This document shows, piece by piece, positions 42,818-44,730 of a stretch of DNA of 64,000 bases. Under the pieces are notes generated by a model. The model was not told the origin of the DNA. It saw nothing but the letters and a program-made list of their open reading frames with translations, and searched no databases. Location of the stretch: the NCBI GenBank assembly GCA_028277745.1, contig JANQFR010000009.1:1-64000 (forward strand), written 5' to 3'. The position numbers were made by a program, and so were the translations under genes. The stretch's first letter is position 1. Each line of letters opens with the position of its first letter. The stretch comes from Phycisphaeraceae bacterium. GTDB lineage: Bacteria; Planctomycetota; Phycisphaerae; Phycisphaerales; Phycisphaeraceae.

Positions 42818-42840
42818 ATCGACGTCGAGCCCCGGGGGGG

Positions 42841-43001
42841 AGGGGAAACCGCAGGAACCGCAGGAACCGCAGAAAAAACAGGAACCGGCAAGCCCACCCG
42901 ACAGGTTGGTTTCACGGCCGCTGCACGCCTCAGCGATGGGCCGTCCCCACGGCGGTTCCTGCGGTTCCTGAGTTTCCTGCGGTTCCTGCGGTTTCCTCCC
43001 C
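42841..43001. repeat. Mirror arrays of a 9-10-mer (GCAGGAACC) forming long complementary arms
   Basis: Bases 42841-42888 contain repeated CCGCAGGAA units. Bases 42952-43001 contain the complementary GGTTCCTGC units, so the arms can pair over nearly 48 bases around a loop of about 63 bases. It sits in the divergent ilvE-glyS spacer, where it could influence both promoters or simply mark slippage expansion. Confidence 0.75.
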
Positions 43002-43086
43002 TCCGCGCGGGGCCCAAACCGATACACTACCCCGCTCGAACCGCCGCCCCGCATCCCCGTGCCGGGGCCTTACGAAAGGCTTTGCG

Positions 43087-44730
43087 ATGACCATCACCGA
43101 CCCCGCCCACAAGTCCATGGACGACATCGTCGCCCTCTGCAAGCGGCGCGGCTTCGTCTTCCCCGCTTCCGAAATCTACGGCGGGCTCAACGGCTTCTGG
43201 GACTACGGCCCCCTCGGGACCGCCCTCAAAAACAACATCCGCGACTGGTGGTGGAAACGCACCGTCGAGTGCCCCCCCATCGGGCCCGACGGCGAGCCTG
43301 TCTCCATCGTCGGCCTCGACTCGTCGATCATCCAGAACCCCAAGACCTGGGAAGCCTCGGGCCACGTCGGCGGGTTCAGCGATCCGATGGTGGACTGCAC
43401 GGAAAGTAAGAAACGTTACCGCGCAGACCAACTACATGCGGCTGCTGTAATCACCAGTGATGAATATCAAGAAAACCATCCACTTCAACTAACTATGGTT
43501 TGGTTCGCATGGTTAGAAAATGATGAAGTAAGTCGTGCTCAGGCATATCGAAAAGCGGAAAAATTTGTTAAAAAAAACGGTGGCAAATTTGACCCAAGTC
43601 AACACGCCAGCTTTATGTTTCTTGCCGGCGCAGATCCGCAAGAAGATGTATCAATAGAAGATAGAGCAATGCTTTTAGGGCGGATTGTTGGCCCGGACAC
43701 CGACAAACCCGGCACGCTCACGCCTCCGCGCGACTTCAACCTCATGTTCGAGACCTACGTCGGCGCCATCCGCGACGAGGACGCCAAGGCTTACCTCCGC
43801 CCCGAGACCGCCCAGGGCATCTTCCTCAACTACCTCAACGTCCTCAACACCATGCGGGTCAAGATGCCCTTCGGCATCGCCCAGATCGGCAAGTCCTTCC
43901 GCAACGAGGTGACGCCCCGCAACTTCATCTTCCGCTCCCGCGAGTTCGAGCAGATGGAGATGGAGTGGTTCTGCGCCCCGGAAGATTCGCCGAAGTGGTA
44001 TCAGTTCTGGAAAGAAGAACGCATGAATTGGTGGGAGTCCCTGGGCATCTCCCCGGAGAACCTCCGCTTCCGCGACCACGACGAGGACGAGCTGGCCCAC
44101 TACTCGAAGATGTGCGTGGATGTCGAATACCAATACCCCTTCACCGCCCCGGGCTTCGGCGAGCTCGAGGGCGTCGCCCACCGCGGCTGCTTCGACCTCA
44201 CCCAGCACCAGACCCACTCCAAGACCAAGATGGAGTACTTCGACCAGGAGCGGCAGCTCAGGGCCAAGGAAGCAGGCAAGTCCAAGGAGGAGATCGACGC
44301 GGTCAGCAAGTACATCCCCAACGTGATCGAGCCCGCCAGCGGGTTAACCCGTGCGGTGCTGGTCCTGCTGTGCGAGGCCTACACCCCCGACGACAGCCGG
44401 CCGAGCAAGGTCTTCATGAAGTTCAAGCCCCGGTTCGCCCCGATCAAGGCGGGCGTCTTCCCGCTGGTCGCCAAAGACGGCATGCCCGAGGCCGCCCAGA
44501 AGCTGTATCTCGATTTACGAGAAAGATTTGCGGTCCAGATGGACGTCAAGCAGAACATCGGCAGACGCTACGCCCGGATGGACGAGGCGGGCACGCCCTT
44601 CTGCGTGACCATCGACGGCGAAACATTATCGGACCAGACCGTCACCGTACGCGACCGCGACAGCCAGGGTCAACAGCGGATCAACATCAGCCAGGTCGAA
44701 ACCTTTCTCAGCGAACAGATCGAGCAGTGA
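43087..44730 (+). CDS. glyS: Glycyl-tRNA synthetase, alpha2 type, with AT-rich internal segment
   Basis: The protein has 547 residues from ATG 43087. The eukaryote-like class II GlyRS (GlyQS) has YGGLNGFWDYGPLG, NPKTWEASGHVGGFSDPMVDC, motif 2 IAQIGKSFRNEVTPR, FRSREFEQMEMEWF, EGVAHRGCFDLTQH and motif 3 GLTRAVLVLL, and it charges tRNA-Gly. Residues about 107-202 form the insertion after motif 1. They are encoded by DNA of about 41% G+C (98 of 240 bases at 43441-43680, counted by hand), while flanks are near 65%. The frame stays intact and homology at both junctions (KKRYRADQL, LTPPRDFNLMFETY) is good. The segment may come from recombination with an AT-rich donor. Confidence 0.92.
   Translation: MTITDPAHKSMDDIVALCKRRGFVFPASEIYGGLNGFWDYGPLGTALKNNIRDWWWKRTVECPPIGPDGEPVSIVGLDSSIIQNPKTWEASGHVGGFSDPMVDCTESKKRYRADQLHAAAVITSDEYQENHPLQLTMVWFAWLENDEVSRAQAYRKAEKFVKKNGGKFDPSQHASFMFLAGADPQEDVSIEDRAMLLGRIVGPDTDKPGTLTPPRDFNLMFETYVGAIRDEDAKAYLRPETAQGIFLNYLNVLNTMRVKMPFGIAQIGKSFRNEVTPRNFIFRSREFEQMEMEWFCAPEDSPKWYQFWKEERMNWWESLGISPENLRFRDHDEDELAHYSKMCVDVEYQYPFTAPGFGELEGVAHRGCFDLTQHQTHSKTKMEYFDQERQLRAKEAGKSKEEIDAVSKYIPNVIEPASGLTRAVLVLLCEAYTPDDSRPSKVFMKFKPRFAPIKAGVFPLVAKDGMPEAAQKLYLDLRERFAVQMDVKQNIGRRYARMDEAGTPFCVTIDGETLSDQTVTVRDRDSQGQQRINISQVETFLSEQIEQ
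43405..43690 (+). other. AT-rich island inside glyS
   Basis: Codons switch abruptly to A/T-ending forms (AAA, GAA, TTA, ATA, AAT, CAA) near 43405 and back to C/G-ending forms near 43690. No stop codon, repeat or target duplication is seen at the borders. Confidence 0.85.

Follow-up and report, generated by a model that had tools for sequence, protein, structure and literature searches.

An AT-rich insertion domain in the glycyl-tRNA synthetase of a Phycisphaeraceae bacterium and its recurrent replacement among relatives

The glyS gene and its AT-rich island

The window analysed here, a 64,000-nucleotide stretch from a Phycisphaeraceae bacterium, carries a glyS gene that is interrupted in its composition, though not in its frame, by an AT-rich island (Table 1). 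Judged from its sequence, the product is a dimeric-type glycyl-tRNA synthetase (GlyRS). It reaches 596 bits against the NCBIfam profile NF003211 for glycine--tRNA ligase (cut-off 312) and 476 bits against TIGR00389 (cut-off 243), and it exceeds the cut-offs of both PF00587, the class II core, and PF03129, the HGTP anticodon-binding domain. Fold matches were obtained with 8SLG and 1ATI, and among solved structures the nearest are GlyRS from mycobacteria and Thermus. No second GlyRS was found in the genome of the window, where glyS is the sole GlyRS detected. The preliminary description of the locus, which had reported an unbroken frame and a GlyRS-like protein, is thus confirmed by the 547-residue ORF and its profile score.

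Table 1. Features of the glyS locus in the window
Feature	Coordinates	Strand	Remarks
glyS, dimeric-type glycyl-tRNA synthetase, 547 aa	43087..44730	+	profile matches, closest solved structures
Conserved N-terminal flank on the side of motif 1, GC3 near 0.9	43087..43401	+	at most 86% identity in relatives
5' junction motif PMVDCTESKKRYRAD, protein-conserved	43384..43428	+	codon usage switches within the motif, at codon 106
AT-rich island: insertion domain of GlyRS, residues 106-201, located between motifs 1 and 2	43402..43689	+	
3' junction motif GPDTDKPGTLTPPRDFNLM	43690..43746	+	GC-rich again from the first codon
C-terminal conserved flank: remaining class II core (PF00587) and anticodon-binding domain (PF03129)	43735..44727	+	

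The borders of the island are those of the best two-change-point segment on third-position G+C (GC3), with a log-likelihood gain of 79. In codons 106-201 (43402-43689), GC3 is 0.28 vs. 0.91 for the rest of glyS; the codon usage of the flanks combined with the domain's own amino acids would predict 0.87 (z = -17). The overall G+C content is 42.7% over 43405-43692, compared with 65.4% in the upstream coding sequence (43087-43404) and 62.2% downstream (43693-44727), and a recount at 43441-43680 gives exactly the 98/240 (40.8%) first counted by hand. Codon usage shifts within conserved motifs, in TESKKRYRAD at the 5' side and immediately ahead of GPDTDKPGTLTPPRDFNLMF at the 3' side. If an island is defined as an internal 240-bp window with at most 45% G+C between flanks that both have at least 55%, glyS is unique in harbouring one among 209 ORFs of at least 900 bp in 443 kb sampled from this genome. 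A small run of A/T-ending codons (TTA CGA GAA AGA TTT) is also observed near the 3' end of glyS, at 44517-44535, and is possibly a second, tiny recombination tract.

The island encodes the insertion domain that GlyRS carries between class II motifs 1 and 2, on the acceptor-arm side. In the mycobacterial enzyme, this domain corresponds to residues 88-143, is partly or largely disordered without ligand, and contains a helical insert assigned by the authors to the tRNA acceptor arm (PMC12208437). The predicted model of the window's GlyRS has a mean pLDDT of 80, with values mostly of 84-94 in the insertion domain and lower ones at residues 131-140 and 181-190; the predicted secondary structure of the domain is beta-beta-alpha-beta-alpha. 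A model of a zinc-type domain (L088) had a pLDDT of 54 and was set aside. Against Pfam, the window's domain gave nothing beyond a chance match to KdgM (E = 0.12).

Upstream of glyS, the interval that separates it from an aminotransferase gene contains a 58-nt inverted repeat (42830-43010) with 81% complementarity and a 65-nt spacer. It is built of the 9-bp unit GCAGGAACC, has a folding energy of -95.5 kcal/mol (z = -6.5), and was not seen in the other loci compared. No T-box or other Rfam element was found near glyS.

Variability of the insertion domain among related bacteria

The domain was compared in 131 related glyS genes, with one genome per species. Its core ranges from 12 to 124 residues. 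The flanks align well in 60 relatives, and many of the matches are interrupted exactly at residues ~117-200. The domain sequences fall into several clusters and many singletons: the motifs YAFxEG and KKLKK mark a common short type, CxxC and CPxCGG a zinc type, and a terminal PSPFTGK a long type; further types include a very short one with cysteines. Unrelated domains are found behind flanks that are 90-96% identical in genera g9, g10, g20, g31, g34, and g37. Five different domains occur in the five species of g20, three types among five in g37, and at least two types within each of g31, g9, g10, g15, g22, and g34; zinc-ribbon and non-zinc domains alternate within one genus.

Over all pairs, the median identity of the domain core stays at 0.16-0.20 in every bin of flank identity from 0.55 to 0.90, the N-terminal flank being taken as the 95 residues preceding the domain. 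The domain sequence is nearly independent of flank similarity. With clusters defined by BLAST single linkage at E <= 1e-5 (D00-D05, of which D00 may conceal sub-types) and singletons left out of the count, the flank tree requires no fewer than 24 cluster changes. The best relative of the window's own domain, in genome G014, is 38-39% identical to it. According to the preliminary description, the island would have been an old native feature if close relatives had the same AT-rich DNA and the segment grouped with its own clade. The opposite was found, with domains 25-32% identical behind flanks that are 83-84% identical. Domain swapping was also seen in L112, L119, and L123, which are labelled Proteobacteria/Alphaproteobacteria and of which L123 has an AT-rich variant, so that the phenomenon is not limited to planctomycetes.

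Aspartyl-tRNA synthetase (AspRS), which likewise belongs to class II and has an insertion domain, served as a control in the same 34 genomes. It is colinear from end to end in 31 of them; in two it is split across contigs, and G061 gave weak matches only. In 32 within-genus pairs, the median of the lowest identity in a 70-residue window is 0.77 for AspRS vs. 0.14 for GlyRS. In G014/G062, the only pair with a low AspRS value (0.29), the ORFs differ in length and the value is probably due to sequence ahead of the start; comparisons involving G065 end at a contig edge. AspRS in the same genomes shows nothing comparable to the variation of the GlyRS domain.

The tRNA partner is also highly conserved. 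With tRNA genes located by the Rfam tRNA model and ARAGORN, the major tRNA-Gly(GCC) was found to be identical across its 72 nt in seven genomes (G000, G008, G021, G064, G040, G044, and G048) that have at least five domain types. The acceptor stem GCGGGTG/CACCCGC is in register in 25 of 28 genomes and shifted by one base in the other three, and U73 and the 3' strand of the stem are constant in all 28. CCA is not encoded in the tRNA-Gly genes.

Several observations concern the surroundings of tRNA genes. In G030 (C1:2585431-3218193), a full copy of tRNA-Gly(GCC) is accompanied by roughly eleven copies of its 3' half, at spacings of some 20-105 kb over 630 kb; such copies also occur in G073 and G072 and look as if integrative elements had accumulated at the tRNA-Gly gene. 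In G019, the full gene (L280 52-124) is followed by an apparent tyrosine recombinase (598-1758), and a copy of the 3' half lies 44 kb beyond (C13:44492-44538), making this site a probable integrative element. In the window's own genome, eight tRNA genes, including Thr-AGT and Arg-ACG, are packed in less than 1 kb (L209 1501-2442; G000:C64:51682-52623), in an array that resembles those of the kind found in phages or mobile elements.

Replacement of the segment and bias of its composition

In two near-sister pairs, the junctions are sharp. Between G030 and G073, the DNA is colinear and 86-94% identical on either side; within glyS, the alignment is lost over the domain only, and it has additional short breaks elsewhere. 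Between L112 and L123, blocks of 1.8-2.6 kb, 91.1% and 89.1% identical, flank a 210/273-bp mismatch located in the domain. The junctions of this pair lie within the conserved motifs: the first 23 nt of the 5' motif are identical, as are the final 24 nt of the 3' motif. Moreover, domain variants are common to distant lineages, with the domain more similar than the flanks between distant hosts: identities are 0.74 for the domain and 0.63 for the flank in L033/L113, and 0.89 and 0.85 in L057/L064. Breaks confined to the domain and distant hosts whose domains are closer than their flanks both require an exchange of the segment alone. The segment is discordant with its flanks in both composition and ancestry, as in a mosaic gene. 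Since genus g1, to which the window belongs, has no sister species, it is composition and divergence that argue for a swap in this particular lineage.

Between swaps, the domain is under purifying selection. Its dN typically reaches 3-5 times the flank value, and omega is mostly 0.01-0.3 for alignable, vertically inherited domains. For several close pairs (L134/L138, L019/L056, and L112/L119), dS is also elevated in the domain. This is suggestive of variants older than the flanks, and codon selection on the flanks could contribute.

The compositional bias is widespread and has one direction. At a threshold of z < -4, 40 of 125 domains have less third-position G+C than expected, vs. 2 of 590 control blocks from the same genes; no domain lies above z = +4, and the window's domain has the most extreme AT bias of the 131. 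Low GC accompanies domain rarity (Spearman 0.43 between GC and nearest-domain identity) as well as greater length (Spearman -0.45), and common short variants have a host-like GC. The bias is one-sided even where host GC is middling. It would be best explained by an AT-rich donor pool; alternatively, heterologous segments, which lack partners, may escape a gene conversion that raises GC. Searches of 397 genomes of the class gave no close relative for the window's domain, those of plasmids no donor, and those of viral contigs and phages no credible donor. Four phage matches with 42-50% identity were discarded, the contigs being short, unannotated, and similar to bacterial fragments.

Origin of the domain and implications

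Replacement of the insertion domain was in frame, confined to this segment, and recurrent. It is highly probable that the AT-rich domain of the window entered by replacing this segment alone in a native glyS, through a recurrent, cassette-like exchange by recombination. The conserved motifs PMVDC..RYRAD and GPD..GTLTxPR-FNLMF are the only shared stretches, for which reason homologous recombination within them is the likely route. They would act as homology arms, so that the reading frame is preserved along with the parts for catalysis and anticodon binding. The domain would be an exchangeable cassette, of which numerous unrelated versions exist, in otherwise normally inherited surroundings, its replacement being repeated within the order and also in one lineage of Alphaproteobacteria whose GlyRS is of this type. 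An AT-rich donor pool may supply the segments, and the window would hold a version that has not been ameliorated. Either a selective driver, perhaps escape from a binder of the domain, or a domain that is unusually tolerant of being replaced may sustain the exchange. Two results speak against this explanation: the searches gave no donor or near-identical domain for the window's own allele, and a one-sided AT bias in hosts of middling GC is unlike what random donors would give. Of the options in the preliminary description, the one favoured for the window's gene is recombination with an AT-rich source that replaced a single structural insertion. Beyond that description, replacement proves to be no isolated event, as the domain shows it repeatedly throughout the order and outside it.

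Other origins of the island were weighed. An assembly or binning chimera, also raised at the outset, could be suspected in a draft of 99 contigs. However, the frame is intact, the motifs are conserved at both borders, and equivalent islands exist in the single-contig genomes G066 (dGC3 -0.46) and G057 (dGC3 -0.58) and in dozens of others, which makes such an error very unlikely, to the point of being negligible. Evolution in situ would dispense with swaps, the domain evolving so fast, and accepting AT-biased mutations, that homologues would lose all recognisable similarity within a genus. The high dN, the one-sided bias, and the beta-beta-alpha-beta plan that many non-zinc variants may share, from sequence and model, would all fit. 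Nevertheless, alignable domains are constrained, wholly unalignable ones stand behind nearly identical flanks with intermediates absent, zinc-ribbon and non-zinc types alternate inside one genus, and the common short variants keep a host-like GC. Nor can this process yield domains closer than flanks between distant hosts; such discordant sharing already largely refutes it, and we regard it as improbable. Matching of the domain to species-specific acceptor stems of tRNA-Gly might be imagined from the position given to the mycobacterial domain, at the acceptor arm (PMC12208437). But a tRNA-Gly(GCC) that keeps its acceptor stem and U73, and is even identical in genomes with different domain types, argues against co-evolution, and we give this idea hardly any credence.

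Two further readings bear on why swaps occur. They may occur merely because a loosely attached domain tolerates almost any substitute, with no selection for new variants. The disorder described for the mycobacterial domain (PMC12208437) and the existence of short forms with a core of 12-14 residues are in keeping with this. Purifying selection between swaps is not, and the 209 other long ORFs, surely some of them with loosely attached parts, show no comparable islands; this reading may well hold, even if we lean slightly away from it. More doubtful, while still conceivable, is a polymorphic cassette under frequency-dependent selection, where an antagonist (a phage protein, an interbacterial toxin, or a natural product) would attack GlyRS via the domain and new domains from the AT-rich pool would give escape. 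This would resemble surface-antigen exchange, but within the translation machinery.

Mosaic genes formed by intragenic homologous recombination, such as those of penicillin-binding proteins and surface antigens, likewise have foreign segments between conserved stretches, native flanks, and a preserved frame. Here, in contrast, one domain of a cytoplasmic housekeeping enzyme is concerned, the import is often unalignable with the segment replaced, and the process recurs in different orders. Hypervariable, cassette-like loci subject to balancing selection, including restriction-enzyme specificity domains and O-antigen loci, share with glyS a conserved frame and unrelated central variants common to distant lineages, whereas the GlyRS domain has no known partner, antagonist, or phenotype. 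The GlyRS of Thermus thermophilus (1ATI, 1B76) is of the same dimeric type, with an insertion in the catalytic core and a full-length fold match, but the window's domain has no sequence alignment to it. The sole precedent found at this position is mycobacterial: two groups of GlyRS, ~80% identical, carry different insertion domains, one of them with a zinc-binding motif (PMC12208437). As in the present case, the alternatives occupy the same position of the same enzyme; however, only two variants are described, and the available text does not discuss recombination, AT-rich islands, or wider hypervariability (PMC12208437). We found no description of hypervariability or cassette exchange of any synthetase in the open-access literature, which is weak evidence.

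An essential enzyme of translation should be inherited as a whole or replaced as a whole, and the GlyRS domain departs from that expectation. It is exchanged so often that almost no phylogenetic signal is left in it, while the tRNA and the rest of glyS hardly change. Hence, GlyRS trees or inhibitors based on the insertion region will mislead. The system is experimentally simple and lends itself to domain swaps and to growth and resistance tests. Finally, the pattern points to an unexplained pressure, or to an unusual freedom, at a defined site of GlyRS.
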